From Rhodothermus sp. (lineage in GTDB: Bacteria > Bacteroidota > Rhodothermia > Rhodothermales > Rhodothermaceae), in assembly GCA_030950375.1 (NCBI GenBank), contig JAUZRN010000028.1, forward strand, positions 1-45,337: a stretch of DNA of 45,337 nt, read 5' to 3'. Position numbers and translations under genes: made by a program. The notes beneath the pieces are model-generated. The model had not been told where the DNA came from and searched no databases. It saw only the letters and a program-made list of their open reading frames with translations. Shown here in pieces: positions 39,524-45,337 of the stretch (the stretch's first letter is position 1; each line of letters starts with the position of its first letter).

Positions 39524-40104
39524 GCTAAATCAGAGCGGTCACCGTTTGGTGTGTTGCAGGCGCAGGCAAAACGACTATGGCATGCGTCGGGGCGAACAAC
39601 CCGCAGATCCTGCGATGCCACTGACGTCTTACATGATCCGGCTTCGTCGAAAAGATTGTCGGGGTATTGCGCACCAACATCAGCCGGAAGCTTATTGCGT
39701 GGCCTCTGCAAGCAGAACGTATGGTAGTCGTGATCCCTTTAGTGTAATGCTGCGCCAGGATTGGGGGGCAGCAGGGGCTCGTTGTTGCGTGTGACCGATT
39801 CGTTTGGATACGTAGGGTTACCTATCGTAACGCGCCAGACAGACCGCCTGGAGGAAGCGAAGCGTTACGTCTCTTTATTAAATGGACAGCTTTTGAAGGT
39901 TTGTGACGGGGGAGCAGTCGTGGAGGACGCAACTGGCACATCCTGTGCAACAGAAAAACGACGGGTTTTCGAAAGAGACCGTACAGGACCGAAAGAAAAA
40001 AATCGTCCGACCATTTAAGAGGTCGGACAGACGGTCGATACCTACCCAGAAGCCTGTCAACAGGAAAACCACCAAACATCCGTTAACCAAACAGGAGGCT
40101 CGTC
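39524..40104 (+). other. Long non-coding leader before the pilin-like gene
   Basis: Almost 600 bases with no convincing gene; the short open frames lack family features or ribosome binding sites. Two perfect hairpins can form: CGTAACGC (39826-39833) with GCGTTACG (39862-39869), enclosing a CCAG/CTGG inner stem, and GTCCGACC (40005-40012) with GGTCGGAC (40021-40028) around an 8-base loop. The last 70 bases before the pilin gene are rich in A and C and mostly unstructured. The region may hold the promoter and a regulated 5' leader. I found no match to the c-di-GMP riboswitch consensus by eye. Confidence 0.45.
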
Positions 40105-40566
40105 ATGGGTCAGCAACAGCTTTTGCTCCTTGTGCTGGGCATGGTGATCGTGGGCATTGCGGTAGTGGCCGGCATCCAGGCATTTTCCGAAGGGAAAGCC
40201 AAGGCCGACCGTGATGCGGCGGTCAGCGATGCTATGCGGTTGATTTCGGACATCCAAGCCTGGATGTTGAAGCCCAAAGCCTTTGGAGGTGGGGGCGATT
40301 CGGGAGACTGGAGCAACGTGAGTTTTCAGGCGATCGGAATTCCTTCTTCCAGCCTGGATAACAACGGACGCTATCTTACCCTCAATGGGTGTTATGCGTT
40401 GAGTGGGAATACCACGGCCGCTACGCTGACAATTTATAGCCTTACAACCGTCGATGGCGAGCGCGTCTGTGATGCCAACACCACCATTGCTACGGTGACA
40501 ATTGACGGTACGACGCCCGACGATATTGCCTGGAGCTATGCAACGAACAATAACAACAACAACTAA
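40105..40566 (+). CDS. Pilin-like protein with atypical N-terminus
   Basis: 153 residues. The N-terminus is MG followed by QQQ and an unbroken ~20-residue hydrophobic helix (LLLLVLGMVIVGIAVVAGI), then a helical polar stretch, the layout of type IV pilins. Cleavage after Gly2 would give a mature N-terminus of Gln, with Leu at position 5 where Glu is nearly always found. The C-terminal half is Gly/Ser/Thr/Asn-rich and beta-like, has two cysteines ~29 residues apart that could form a disulfide, and ends in a run of six Asn. The ribosome binding site AGGAGG (40093-40098) is unusually strong for this window, suggesting high expression. Assignment rests on the helix and on the GspF- and GspE-like neighbours. 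Confidence 0.75.
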   Translation: MGQQQLLLLVLGMVIVGIAVVAGIQAFSEGKAKADRDAAVSDAMRLISDIQAWMLKPKAFGGGGDSGDWSNVSFQAIGIPSSSLDNNGRYLTLNGCYALSGNTTAATLTIYSLTTVDGERVCDANTTIATVTIDGTTPDDIAWSYATNNNNNN

Positions 40567-40597
40567 ATAATTAGTTTGTAGAGCCTTTCGTAGTAAA

Positions 40598-40647
40598 TCC
40601 GGCGGCGTTCTGTGCGGGGGAAGGCGCCCCGGCGGGGCGCCGCCGGA
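40598..40647 (+). promoter_or_regulatory. Competing hairpins between pilin-like and platform genes
   Basis: Two perfect stems share the same 3' arm: TCCGGCGGCG (40598-40607) pairs with CGCCGCCGGA (40638-40647), while GGCGCCCC (40623-40630) pairs with GGGGCGCC (40634-40641). They cannot both form fully. There is no T-run, so this is more likely an mRNA-stability or processing element that sets the pilin-to-platform ratio than a terminator. Confidence 0.6.
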
Positions 40648-40717
40648 CGGTTTCAGGCCGCCTCTACGGGAACGACTGGCCTGGTTTGCTATCCATTTTG
40701 TGTTGCAGGTATCGAAA

Positions 40718-42079
40718 ATGCCCGTTCGTGAGTTTCGCTTCAGTGGGGTCAGCATAAGCGGGGTGCCCGTGCAGGGAACCGTACTGGCTCCTTCGATGCG
40801 GGCAGCCCGTAAAAAGCTGGCTGAGCTGGCTCGGAAGCATAACTTCCGTCCTCAACTCTTGCAGCCGCGCCGCACGTTTATCTATAAGGTGCGGCACCCC
40901 AGTGGCAAGGTCATTACCGGAGAACAGAAAGCGTATACAGCCGAGGAGCTGGCCCAGGCCCTGCGCAAGATGGGCCTGGAGGTGATCCGCATTGAACGTA
41001 AGATACTCGACCTGCAGCTCAAGCCGCCACGGACGGACATCATTATGTTCGTACGTCTGGCGGCAAACCTGCTTCGTGAAAAGCTCCCCTTCGACGAAGT
41101 CCTGAATCTGCTGGTCAACGATATCTCGTCGAATTCGCTGCGCCAGGTGATCCGCGACCTGAATGCCGACCTGAAGGCAGGGATGGAGGCGCAGCAGGCA
41201 TTCATGAAGCATCAGCACATTCTGGGCAAGTTTACAGCCTACATGCTTGGCCTGGCCTCGAAAAGTGGCAACATGGCCGAGATTTTTGAATCGACCGCAC
41301 GCTTCTTAGAGCGTCAGAATGAGTTTCGCAAGAGCATCCGCAGTGCAATGATCACTCCGGCCATCACGATTATCGCGCTGGTGGCCACGTTCATCTGGTA
41401 TGTGTGGTACATTTTCCCGATGACGGCCGGGCTACTGGCCGACCTGGGTATGGAATTGCCCCCGATGACGGCAGCGACCATGAAGTTTTCGCAATGGCTG
41501 GATCGCAATATCCTGTGGCTGACGCTCAGTTTTGCGGCGGTCGTGCTGGGATTTGTGGCGTTTGCGCGTTCAGAAAAAGGGCAACTCATCGTCCATCGCT
41601 GGCTCATCAAGTTACCGCTCATCGGGGGGCTATTGCACAAGCTGAACATTGAGATCTTCTGTCGGGTCTTTGCCATCCTGTATTCCCATAGCGGCGAAAA
41701 CATCAGCGTGATCAAGATCGCCGCCGAGGCCTGCGGTAATCGCTATATGGAGCATCGAATCAAGACGGTTACGGTGCCACTGATGGTGGCGCAGGGGGTG
41801 GATCTGGTACGGGCTATGGAAGCCAGCGGCGTCTTTACGCAGATGGCACTGGCCCGCTTCCGCAGTGGAGCGGAAACGGGGAACGTGCGGGGGGCTGCCG
41901 AGCAGATGGCAAATTATTACGAAAGCGAGACCACCCTGAAATTGAAGGCGGTTGTGGAGGGGGTTCAGACGGTCATTGCCATCCTGATTACGATCGCTAT
42001 CGCCATCCTGACCATTATTTCCTCTGAAGTGGCCCTGATTCAGCCATCAACAACCGACCTGATGCGAATGGGGGGCTGA
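40718..42079 (+). CDS. GspF/PilC-like inner-membrane platform protein
   Basis: 453-residue T2SSF protein, the membrane platform of type IV pili and type II secretion. Two F domains are seen: residues ~100-210 (FVRLAANLLREKLPFDEVL, LASKSGNMAEIFEST) and ~300-420 (FCRVFAILYSHSGENISVI, ARFRSGAETGNVRGA). Membrane segments lie near 208-232, 263-283 and 418-440. The N-terminus carries the typical PilC start twice: REFRFSGVSISGVPVQGTVL, then FIYKVRHPSGKVITGEQKAY followed by a similar helix; normally there is one. ATG 40718 is chosen over the GTG six codons upstream because the family motif starts right after it. It lies between the pilin-like and ATPase genes. Confidence 0.9.
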   Translation: MPVREFRFSGVSISGVPVQGTVLAPSMRAARKKLAELARKHNFRPQLLQPRRTFIYKVRHPSGKVITGEQKAYTAEELAQALRKMGLEVIRIERKILDLQLKPPRTDIIMFVRLAANLLREKLPFDEVLNLLVNDISSNSLRQVIRDLNADLKAGMEAQQAFMKHQHILGKFTAYMLGLASKSGNMAEIFESTARFLERQNEFRKSIRSAMITPAITIIALVATFIWYVWYIFPMTAGLLADLGMELPPMTAATMKFSQWLDRNILWLTLSFAAVVLGFVAFARSEKGQLIVHRWLIKLPLIGGLLHKLNIEIFCRVFAILYSHSGENISVIKIAAEACGNRYMEHRIKTVTVPLMVAQGVDLVRAMEASGVFTQMALARFRSGAETGNVRGAAEQMANYYESETTLKLKAVVEGVQTVIAILITIAIAILTIISSEVALIQPSTTDLMRMGG

Positions 42080-42295
42080 TGAGGCGCAAAAGGGACTTCG
42101 TCATGATCGACATACGGCCAGGAAAAATGCATGCCCCGTAGGAAACGCCTGTTAACAGGCCAGACACGATGGGGGAGTCTGTCCGGATAAAGGGACATTG
42201 AGGTTGGGCAGGTGCTTCCCGGGTATGCATCTGCGGGCAGGGCAGAGAGAGCAGGATATCAAACCACGCGCAAGCGCGCCAGAACGATCAAGCGT
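42080..42295 (+). other. Intergenic region with palindrome before the ATPase gene
   Basis: About 216 bases between the platform and ATPase genes. The only frame overlapping the platform stop (ATG 42079) encodes 20 unremarkable residues. A perfect 14-bp palindrome GCCTGTTAACAGGC occupies 42147-42160 and could be an operator or a hairpin. No clear ribosome binding site precedes the ATPase ATG. Confidence 0.45.
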
Positions 42296-45200
42296 ATGGG
42301 CTGGAGTGATCTGTTCGGGCGCCGCCGTTCGCATCGTGAGTGGAACGAGGAGCTGCGGCGGCTGAAGTTCGGGAAAGCGGACGCTTCTGAAGAAACACCA
42401 TCGCCCGATGCCGCCAGGCAGTCCGCTGCCAACGACAAGAAAGCGCAGGGGGCTGCGTCGGAAGCGACCGGCCAGAACACCCCACGGCACCATGAGGACG
42501 CGCCACTGACCCAGTTGTGGCTGGAGATGGCCGGTGATGGACATTCCAAGTCGTTGCCGGCGCTGTCCGATGCATCGTTGTCGGCTTCGCAGGAAGCCGT
42601 GGAAGACACGCAGGCCACCGGGGAAGCCAATCAGACTGCTGAGCTGGCTGATGACATGGCGGCTACCGGAGCCGTGTCGGCTCGGCCACAGGCGAGTCAG
42701 TCTAATGCGTCGTCGGGACACCCTTCCCTGCGTTCGCCATCGTCCCGATCGCAGACAGAGGCTCATGATCCCCTGTCTGCGGAACGTGACCATAGCCGTC
42801 TCCATTCGGGTACAGGCGACTCTCGGACTGCCACTTTTGCTGAAGGAGGGAGCCTGTCCGAGCTGGCTGAAATGTTCGAAGACGAAGTGGTGGTGGCGCT
42901 GCTCTATGGGGGGGCTGTGCGTCTGGATCAGATTGCCCGGGCGATCGTTCTGCGTCGCCGCCAGTCTGCACCGACACTCTGGCGGTGTTTGCTGGAAGTC
43001 CCAGATGTGGACCGCGAGGCCGTGCTGGCTGAAGCTGCCCGCATCGGCGGTATCGCACCGGCTCCGGTGGATGAAGAACGGCCTTCTGTAGAATTCATTA
43101 AGGCCATCTTGTTACTCTTGCCGCCTTCAGTGCAACATGCCCTATTCGAATGGCAGTTGCTTCCCTGTGGATTTGCCCAGGGGGAGAAGGACGAGGGGCG
43201 CGTGCTTCTGCTGGCTACCTGCGATCCCACACGTCCGGAGCTGGAAGCGTGGGTCCAGCAGTTGCCCCTGGCCGTCGAGCTCCGGTATGCTCCGGAACGT
43301 ATCCTGAAAAAGCGGCTGGCCGAACTGGAAAACTTCCGGCCACCTGTACCGAGCGCAGACCAGTTGCCAACTTCATCGGTGGCTGCAGACACCTCGACAG
43401 CAGGTTCCGCAGAAAAACAGAGTGACCCTGCAGTAAAACAATCGCTTGAGATGCCGGTGTCGGTGGAGGGGGAGTCGGACGCCCAACCCGACACTGGTAC
43501 CCCCAATGGGCCGGAGACATCGGCGGTCGAAGTACGGTCGGACAACAAAAGCGCTGAAACAGCCAAGCTCACAGGTACAGCAACCACTTCTGGATGGTCC
43601 GCAACCGAAAACGCATCGGACGATCAGCCGGAAGAAGGCGAGGTCGCCTGCGGAAGAGATGAGTCTGGTGGCTCCCAGTCTTCTGTTGCTGCGGATGAGG
43701 CAACAGACCAGGAGGCGGTTGTTGATTGGGCTTCGGAACGGCACGCGGTGGACGAACTGCCGACGAAAGCGGGCCTTGAGCAGGAAACTGGCTGCGCCGA
43801 TGGGCCCCCATCGGAACCTGCCGCGGCAGAAGCACAGGCTGCAGCCGCATCAGCAACAGCATTGCCTGAAGTTACAATAGAGACGATAGAGCCGGCATCC
43901 GAGGCAGCGGGTGGAGACAGCGAACAGGTAGAAGATACTCCCTCGATCACCGACAGCGAAGCGGAAGAGACGCCTGCCTCGGTTCAGATCGTACTGGATG
44001 ATCTACCTGAGCTCAAAACGGCTATCAGCCGAGACCGGGTAGTGAGCCGGTTGCTCGAGAAGGAAGTGGTGGCCCTGCATCAGGTCTATCAGGCCTATCA
44101 GCGACAGCAGGATGAAGGGTTGAAAGAGCCCCTCTGGCGCGTGCTGGCGCAGAGCGATCATGTGCCGCAGGATGCCATTTACGAAGAGGCCGCACGGTTG
44201 TACGCCTTTCCTCTTGCCCGATTGGAGCCGGGCAAGCCCAGTCCAGAATTTGTGCGCTCGGTTATGGATACCTTTGAAGAAGAGGTACGCGAGCGTCTGA
44301 TTGCCCTTCGTGTCGTGCCCTTTGAGGTCGACCTGGATGCCCAGACCGGCGCGGTCAAACTCGTCCTGGTCACCCATGATCCCATGCGGCCTGAAGTGCA
44401 CCGCCTGATGCATCGACTCAAGCTGGAGCGCTTCGAGCTCCAATATGCACCGCAGGGCGTCATTATGCAGGCATTGCTGGAGGCTTATCCACGGCGCAAC
44501 GAATACCTGGAACGTGTTCAGGAAGAAGAAGCCTATGATCTGGGCACCAGCTATGAGGCCGAGACCGAATTGATCGATGAGGACGCCTTAGAGGCGGAGA
44601 TCAACCGTTCGAAGCTGATCAACCTGTTCGAGGCTACGCTCGTCGAGGCCGTCCGACAGGGCGCCTCCGACATCCACATCTTCCCCAACAATGAAAAGAA
44701 GGTCGAAATCCATTTTCGCATTGATGGTCGGCTTACGCGCTGGCACGTTGAGGATAAGGTGCATCCGGAGGCGCTGATCGCAGTCATCAAGGACCAGGCC
44801 ATCAATGTGGATCGCTTTGAGCGCGATGCGGCGCAGGACGGTTTTATTCAGCGCTGGATCGACGATCACCTGATCCGCTTCCGCGTCTCCGTGCTACCGA
44901 TCGCCAATGCACTTGAAGACCTGCGCTCTGAATCCATCGTTATCCGCGTGCTCGACGATCGCAAGGTCATCAAAGACCTGCGCCTGCTGGGACTGAACAA
45001 AAAAGCACTGGAACGCTTTGAGCGGGCCATCCGCCAACCCTACGGCATGGTGATCGTCACCGGACCCACCGGCTCCGGGAAAAGCACCACCCTCTACGCC
45101 GCCCTCCACCAGGTCGTCAGCCCTGAAGTGAACGTGCTGACGATTGAGGATCCGGTCGAATACATCATTCCCGGTGTGCGGCAGATCAAGCTCAATCACA

Positions 45201-45337
45201 AGCTGGGCCTGGAAGATGCGCTGCGGGCCATTTTGCGGCACGACCCCGACATCGTGATGGTCGGCGAGATGCGCGATCGACAGACGGCCGAGCTGGCCAT
45301 CAAGCTGGCCAATACGGGGCATCTGACGTTTTCGACG
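42296..45337 (+). CDS. GspE/PilB-like secretion ATPase with two N-terminal modules, 3' end missing
   Basis: The frame is open from ATG 42296 to the last base (1014 codons), so the C-terminus is outside. A low-complexity polar segment (~25-180) is followed by a first GspE_N/MshEN-like module (~184-345: LSELAEMFEDEVVVALLYGG, LEVPDVDREAVLAEAARIGG). A long acidic Ala/Glu/Ser-rich linker (~350-565) leads to a second module (~575-735: ALHQVYQAYQRQQDEGL, VPQDAIYEEAARLYAFPL). The motor domain starts near 770 (LVEAVRQGASDIHIF). Walker A GPTGSGKST is at 923-931, and the Asp/Walker B region DPDIVMVGEMRD is at 983-994. The RLGxxL c-di-GMP-binding motif of MshE is not evident in either module. It should power assembly of the pilin-like fibre. 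Confidence 0.9.
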   Translation, partial: MGWSDLFGRRRSHREWNEELRRLKFGKADASEETPSPDAARQSAANDKKAQGAASEATGQNTPRHHEDAPLTQLWLEMAGDGHSKSLPALSDASLSASQEAVEDTQATGEANQTAELADDMAATGAVSARPQASQSNASSGHPSLRSPSSRSQTEAHDPLSAERDHSRLHSGTGDSRTATFAEGGSLSELAEMFEDEVVVALLYGGAVRLDQIARAIVLRRRQSAPTLWRCLLEVPDVDREAVLAEAARIGGIAPAPVDEERPSVEFIKAILLLLPPSVQHALFEWQLLPCGFAQGEKDEGRVLLLATCDPTRPELEAWVQQLPLAVELRYAPERILKKRLAELENFRPPVPSADQLPTSSVAADTSTAGSAEKQSDPAVKQSLEMPVSVEGESDAQPDTGTPNGPETSAVEVRSDNKSAETAKLTGTATTSGWSATENASDDQPEEGEVACGRDESGGSQSSVAADEATDQEAVVDWASERHAVDELPTKAGLEQETGCADGPPSEPAAAEAQAAAASATALPEVTIETIEPASEAAGGDSEQVEDTPSITDSEAEETPASVQIVLDDLPELKTAISRDRVVSRLLEKEVVALHQVYQAYQRQQDEGLKEPLWRVLAQSDHVPQDAIYEEAARLYAFPLARLEPGKPSPEFVRSVMDTFEEEVRERLIALRVVPFEVDLDAQTGAVKLVLVTHDPMRPEVHRLMHRLKLERFELQYAPQGVIMQALLEAYPRRNEYLERVQEEEAYDLGTSYEAETELIDEDALEAEINRSKLINLFEATLVEAVRQGASDIHIFPNNEKKVEIHFRIDGRLTRWHVEDKVHPEALIAVIKDQAINVDRFERDAAQDGFIQRWIDDHLIRFRVSVLPIANALEDLRSESIVIRVLDDRKVIKDLRLLGLNKKALERFERAIRQPYGMVIVTGPTGSGKSTTLYAALHQVVSPEVNVLTIEDPVEYIIPGVRQIKLNHKLGLEDALRAILRHDPDIVMVGEMRDRQTAELAIKLANTGHLTFST

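Follow-up and report, generated by a model that had tools for sequence, protein, structure and literature searches.

The window analysed here is the whole 45,337-nucleotide contig C28 of the Rhodothermus sp. assembly G000, which is 3.03 Mb in 68 contigs and 99.6% complete. Between positions 40105 and 45337 it carries the genes for a major pilin, a PilC/GspF-type platform and a PilB/GspE-type motor, all in a single direction on the forward strand. This locus is probably the first part of a complete and likely retractile pilus machine of the type IVa-like kind. The subunits of this machine would be encoded in a near-mature form and would need no cleavage by a prepilin peptidase. Ordinary type IV prepilins are kept in the membrane by a charged leader until they are cut by PilD, which also methylates Phe1; Glu5 then helps docking. 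Across type IV pili, type II secretion, Com and archaeal filaments, this leader cleavage is treated as a defining and essential step. In Synechocystis without PilD, the uncut prepilin is harmful (PMC8546353).

The major pilin is encoded without a leader

The pilin gene (40105-40566, forward strand) encodes 153 residues, MGQQQLLLLVLGMVIVGIAVVAGIQ. The protein begins MGQQQLLLLVLG and lacks Glu5; an earlier note on this DNA had described this MGQQQ start followed by platform and motor genes, and its positions were confirmed. An in-frame stop codon, TAA at 40084-40086, lies 6 codons 5' of the start, and a Shine-Dalgarno sequence, AGGAGG, occupies 40093-40098. Together they leave no space for a longer leader, which makes the start certain. 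Homologous genes look alike: the in-frame stop usually lies 0-13 codons upstream (at most 13 codons in 77 of the 90 pilin genes found with a hidden Markov model, HMM), many have a good Shine-Dalgarno sequence, and there is generally no alternative start. An upstream start with a normal leader was ruled out, as most homologues have no alternative in-frame start.

G2-Q3-Q4-Q5-L6 is invariant in 90/90 distinct homologous genes obtained by protein or HMM searches. The codons of these residues vary only synonymously, with all four Gly codons and both Gln codons in use. For this count, the frequency of MGQQQ in genome-contig loci was not used because the scan required that motif or a second one. The pilin motif of Cloacimonadota reads MGQQQ or MGTQQ. 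Residues 1-24 contain no K, R, H, D or E in any of the 90 genes, and residues 1-10 are identical in 25/25 aligned homologues, while full-length identity drops to about 25%. A class III signal peptide, i.e., a charged leader ending in Gly or Ala and followed by FxxxE, is absent. Judged by these reading frames, the pilin gene encodes no leader beyond M-G(-Q).

Pfam and NCBIfam pilin families had no significant match to the window pilin, and no solved structure was found by sequence with the pilin profile. Two Pfam matches (DUF7263 at E 0.06; MacB_PCD in 10/41 members) were treated as chance. The AlphaFold2 model built from 41 sequences has a mean predicted local distance difference test (pLDDT) score of 92.6 and consists of a helix at residues 3-55 and a four-strand sheet. 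When this model was compared with the PDB by VIA-align, the best 18 matches were all type IV pilins or pseudopilins, or fusions or filament models thereof, with Z from 8.0 to 5.1. The first unrelated chain followed at Z 4.1; a Z below 8 is weak on its own, though the clean gap and the full-length coverage are informative. Foldseek against the PDB gave no pilin match better than E 0.45. The predicted fold is that of a type IV pilin, a long N-terminal helix with a beta sheet.

In the structural alignment, Gln4 of the model corresponds to mature residue 1 of the full-length pilins PAK, GC and FimA. Hence, the protein is of mature pilin length with three extra residues, and its +5 position is Leu8. 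The earlier note had assumed cleavage after Gly2, which would also place Leu at +5. Leu is found there in either register, and the Glu5 of type IVa major pilins is missing in both. The cleavage itself is probably wrong as no prepilin peptidase is detectable and the alignment puts mature position 1 at Gln4.

Prepilin peptidases are absent from most carriers

The Pfam profile Peptidase_A24 found no prepilin peptidase in G000 or in six other genomes of the same genus, one of which (G002) is a single contig and 100% complete. A lineage profile based on 14 related peptidases yielded 28 candidate places in G000, none at E < 0.1. Among the relatives, it recovered the same six A24-positive genomes, with two matches at E 0.05-0.06, and none in the genus. 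Canonical pilins were likewise not found: the N_methyl profile has no match in G000 or the six same-genus genomes; the statement that no canonical pilin lies in the window thus extends to the whole G000 genome.

In a phylum sample of 394 genomes, 51 have A24, 127 have the pilin and 15 have both, in line with chance (Fisher p 0.75), so that the two are statistically independent. A24 is absent from 112 of the 127 carriers, including 12 of the 13 that are single-contig genomes. Incomplete genomes were rejected as the reason, as all 127 carriers belong to the set that is at least 90% complete.

Where A24 occurs, it keeps other company. The six A24-positive relatives (above the Pfam cut-off) all have canonical N_methyl pilins on the same contig, and such pilins are present in 19/20 A24 genomes outside family f27, an exclusion that was made post hoc. 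At many of the A24 loci examined, a pilin of the GF[ST][LM]TELMVVLVI type adjoins the peptidase, e.g., GFSMTELMVVLVI; the MGQQQ pilin is in none of them. In Rhodothermia genomes with A24, the peptidase lies beside canonical GFxxxE pilins at a separate locus. Family f27 itself comprises about 31 genomes (e.g., G128 and G200) with A24-type peptidases, in which neither N_methyl nor MGQQQ pilins were detected.

A conserved operon in a separate filament branch

The pilin family is present in 42/60 relatives, in 127/394 genomes of the phylum by profile, and in 42/59 genomes of a sample from the phylum to which one Cloacimonadota genome belongs. The gene order pilin, platform, motor, minor pilins, PilT, PilMN, PilO-like protein, secretin is kept in Rhodothermota, Ignavibacteria, Kryptoniota, Calditrichota, KSB1 and Cloacimonadota, and the loci open with between one and four major pilin genes in tandem. 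The platforms of MGQQQ loci make up a single clade (support 100/100) that excludes GspF and HofC of E. coli, PilC of Myxococcus and the canonical platforms encoded in the same genomes (e.g., in G014); the tree is unrooted with long branches, so the exact attachment of the clade is unsure. The profile search and platform phylogeny proposed in the earlier note thus bear out its idea of a separate type IV filament branch with conserved synteny: the clade is fully supported, there is one operon order, and no normal pilin is found in the genome. Its restriction to the Rhodothermus lineage was too narrow, as the branch extends to the other five groups named above. An MGQQQ pilin was also seen on a contig labelled Patescibacteria (L166), which could be a binning error.

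The platform gene (40718-42079, forward strand; best start ATG 40718) encodes 453 residues with two T2SSF matches (E 2.5e-27); GspF/PilC models stay under the cut-off. Its best PDB match is Myxococcus PilC. No second platform gene exists in the G000 genome. The motor gene (42296-45337, forward strand; best start ATG 42296) is open at the contig end and encodes an assembly ATPase with T2SSE (E 2.2e-66) and MshEN matches. Through its full-length orthologue in G004, the nearest PDB match is Myxococcus PilB (E 4.6e-86). A TadA-family model gives the motor 36 bits vs 248 for PilB, which does not identify it as a Tad ATPase. Its N-terminus has two MshEN-like regions with a long acidic low-complexity linker between them, and these sequence features suggest a control of the motor by cyclic-di-GMP.

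The contig end cuts the motor gene at a point where a second motor, on contig C24, has almost the same sequence, and the 3' halves of both motors are found at contig ends, on C4 and C15. The motor half on C4 (CPACKVEDKDPDYVMLRKLGFTDEEI) matches its counterpart in G002 and G004, where the operon is intact. Hence, C28 most likely continues into C4, a join that is drawn from synteny and not from overlapping sequence. Inspection of the genes that most likely lie past 45337, as the earlier note had advised, shows on C4 in order: MinA and MinB, followed by two MGK proteins, a PilT-like ATPase, a PilM-PilN fusion, a PilO-like protein and a secretin.

The PilT-like ATPase reaches 321.9 bits against a cut-off of 319.1 (TIGR01420, PilT/PilU family). 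The secretin is nearest PilQ, with a weak match to Amuc_1098. For the PilM-PilN fusion of 578 residues, the family profile matches PilN (3jc8, E 5e-11), and 13/17 of its homologues match the NCBIfam Amuc_1101 PilM-like family (best E 2.4e-9). The PilO-like protein was assigned by position, length and one N-terminal transmembrane segment; it has no profile match. Taking the definition of the type IV filament superfamily in PMC4471445, the locus has the assembly ATPase, the polytopic platform (PilC/GspF) and a predicted pilin fold, while a dedicated or borrowed prepilin peptidase was not found in G000 by A24 profiles. As in type IVa systems, a PilT-family ATPase and the assembly proteins PilM, PilN and PilQ are present.

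The minor pilins lack leaders as well

The operon minor pilins MinA and MinB are leaderless too. MinA homologues begin with MNTGQML, MGTGQTL, MSTYQTL, MSSNQTL, MAQSFF, MSQTLL or MQTLL. The Gln at the helix start is kept, and the preceding residue varies (G, Y, N, A, S, P or the initiator Met), which is unlike a peptidase site. MinB starts include MTVMLDIIG, MATLLDIIM, MWFIFDNLN and MITLLESIA, with Asp or Glu at residue 6 in 24/28. The MinB model (pLDDT 88.4) matches Thermus TTHA1219 and GspJ-type pseudopilins at Z 13.1-10.4, and the next unrelated chain is at 3.7. Its residue 2 aligns with mature residue 1 of XcpW. Hence, the acidic residue 6 takes position 5 of mature GspJ, and the initiator Met replaces the leader. 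MinB is the clearest sign that a leader was lost and not overlooked. In conserved loci, MinA and MinB sometimes sit elsewhere or go undetected.

The MGK proteins of the operon have about 375-390 residues (L039, 13504-15873; L042, 13765-14946) and were seen only in Rhodothermia loci in this analysis. Their N-terminal helix follows directly after MGK, and they have no family match. They are possibly a GspK-like tip subunit or an adhesin.

Proposed assembly and alternative explanations

In the assembly that we propose, the transmembrane helix right behind M-G-Q would insert the major pilin N-in/C-out from the start codon. The protein would lose Met1 at most, which Gly at position 2 favours as a context for methionine aminopeptidase, and once inserted it would be ready for assembly. 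The PilB-like motor and the PilC-like platform would then pull it from the membrane into the filament with neither cleavage nor N-methylation. Leaderless MinA and MinB, the latter with its acidic +5, would prime the filament, and the PilT-like ATPase would retract it through the PilQ-like secretin. The conserved Gln residues probably stand in for the Phe1-Glu5 contact. An acidic +5 is kept only in MinB, which is consistent with a role in initiation. In this scheme, gene content and order, N-termini, predicted folds and the lack of A24 are computed results, from which membrane topology, loss of Met1, formation and retraction of the filament and the lack of cleavage are inferred.

With somewhat less assurance than for the locus itself, we think it rather likely that a major filament branch (Bacteroidota, Ignavibacteria, Calditrichota, KSB1 and Cloacimonadota) lost the leader of its subunits and, in most hosts, also the peptidase. 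In this branch, filaments would assemble without proteolytic maturation or an N-methylated Phe1, and the major pilin would do without Glu5.

Several points weigh against an assembly without cleavage. The Gly before Gln in the major pilin is invariant, as a Gly at -1 would be. A24 is present in 7/7 tested genomes of Cloacimonadota, KSB1 and Calditrichota, and the A24 locus of Cloacimonadota has its own platform, motor and secretin with no clear canonical pilin found nearby; in these three groups the pilin could be processed, or A24 could serve another system. A non-homologous peptidase might lie beyond the reach of profile searches, and both the mature N-terminus and the filaments are predicted from the genes. 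The second type IV filament operon of Cloacimonadota (L193, 4006-4770; L194; L196) comprises A24, platform, motor, secretin and a PilO-like gene.

A substitute peptidase outside A24 that cuts after Gly2 (MG|QQQ) would make the protein a normal pilin with an ultrashort leader of two residues. The invariant Gly2 fits such a cut, as does the Gly before the conserved Gln in about half of the MinA homologues (e.g., MNTG|Q and MGTG|Q). The other MinA proteins, however, have Y, N, A, S, P or the initiator Met there, the acidic +5 of MinB is counted from a variable residue 2 so that no common site emerges, and the conserved operon holds no candidate protease gene; we regard this explanation as unlikely. 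It is still less probable, to a marked degree, that a divergent A24 was missed and canonical maturation occurs. Absence by profile is never proof and G000 is a 68-contig assembly, but the single-contig genome G002 and five others of the genus are negative, the lineage profile found nothing past E 0.1 among its 28 candidate places, and 12 of the 13 single-contig carriers in the phylum are negative as well.

Leaderless subunits would also be compatible with a type II secretion system, in which a short periplasmic pseudopilus pushes proteins out and no surface pilus is formed. MinB is GspJ-like, and GspF/GspE models score the platform and motor about as high as PilC/PilB models do. We nevertheless find this doubtful, given an operon PilT/PilU-family ATPase above its curated cut-off, a secretin nearest PilQ, PilN-like and PilM-like parts, and one to four tandem major pilins. 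That the pilin is a spurious small open reading frame or a chance resemblance, which the lack of a significant Pfam or NCBIfam pilin match might suggest, has a negligible probability. The earlier note had named a frame with no homologues as one case that would overturn its proposal; the carriers counted above, the synteny and the high-confidence pilin fold refute it. A pilus machine that dispenses with prepilin cleavage is the preferred explanation.

If it is correct, a maturation step long held universal is dispensed with, and the filament is built from ready-made subunits. With a natural system that omits cleavage, the purposes of cleavage, N-methylation and Glu5 could be tested directly.

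Comparison with known systems

The machine resembles the type IVa pilus (e.g., of Myxococcus xanthus) in its homologous motor, platform and retraction ATPase, its PilM/PilN-like parts, its secretin and the predicted pilin fold. It differs in that there is no class III leader and no Phe1/Glu5, most carriers have no prepilin peptidase, PilM and PilN are one protein, and the platform clade sits on a very long branch. MinB shares its predicted fold and acidic +5 with GspJ/XcpW of type II secretion and with Thermus TTHA1219 but has no leader, Met1 standing directly before mature +1. The Akkermansia Amuc_1098-1102 (MUL2) pilus is similar in that the PilMN homologues resemble the Amuc_1101 family and the secretin weakly resembles Amuc_1098. 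However, Akkermansia is reported to have an A24 prepilin peptidase (PMC10540074), whereas most MGQQQ carriers have none. The type II secretion-like cluster of Bacteroidota (Cytophaga hutchinsonii CHU_3191-3202) has GspD/E/F homologues and comes from a related lineage; it includes an A24 peptidase and a canonical pseudopilin (PMC5553014). Clusters of this kind exist separately in a few genomes of this analysis.

The literature searched holds no description of this pilin family. On leaderless pilins or a missing prepilin peptidase, it offered nothing relevant beyond a remark on Nanoarchaeota in PMC4471445. One paper lists pilT, pilQ, pilB and pilC for Melioribacter roseus, without pilA and pilD.

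Further features of the locus

The second motor of G000 is a stand-alone PilB-like protein encoded on C24 (43142-43870) and C15 (104627-105181). In its ATPase core it hardly differs from the window motor, and this repeat is probably the reason why the assembly breaks inside both motor genes.

A very stable GC-rich hairpin lies between the pilin and platform genes (40598-40647, forward strand). Its region has a minimum free energy of -62.8 kcal/mol (z -1.86), and no T run is present. Its inferred role is possibly mRNA protection or segmentation, through which the pilin mRNA could exceed the platform mRNA.

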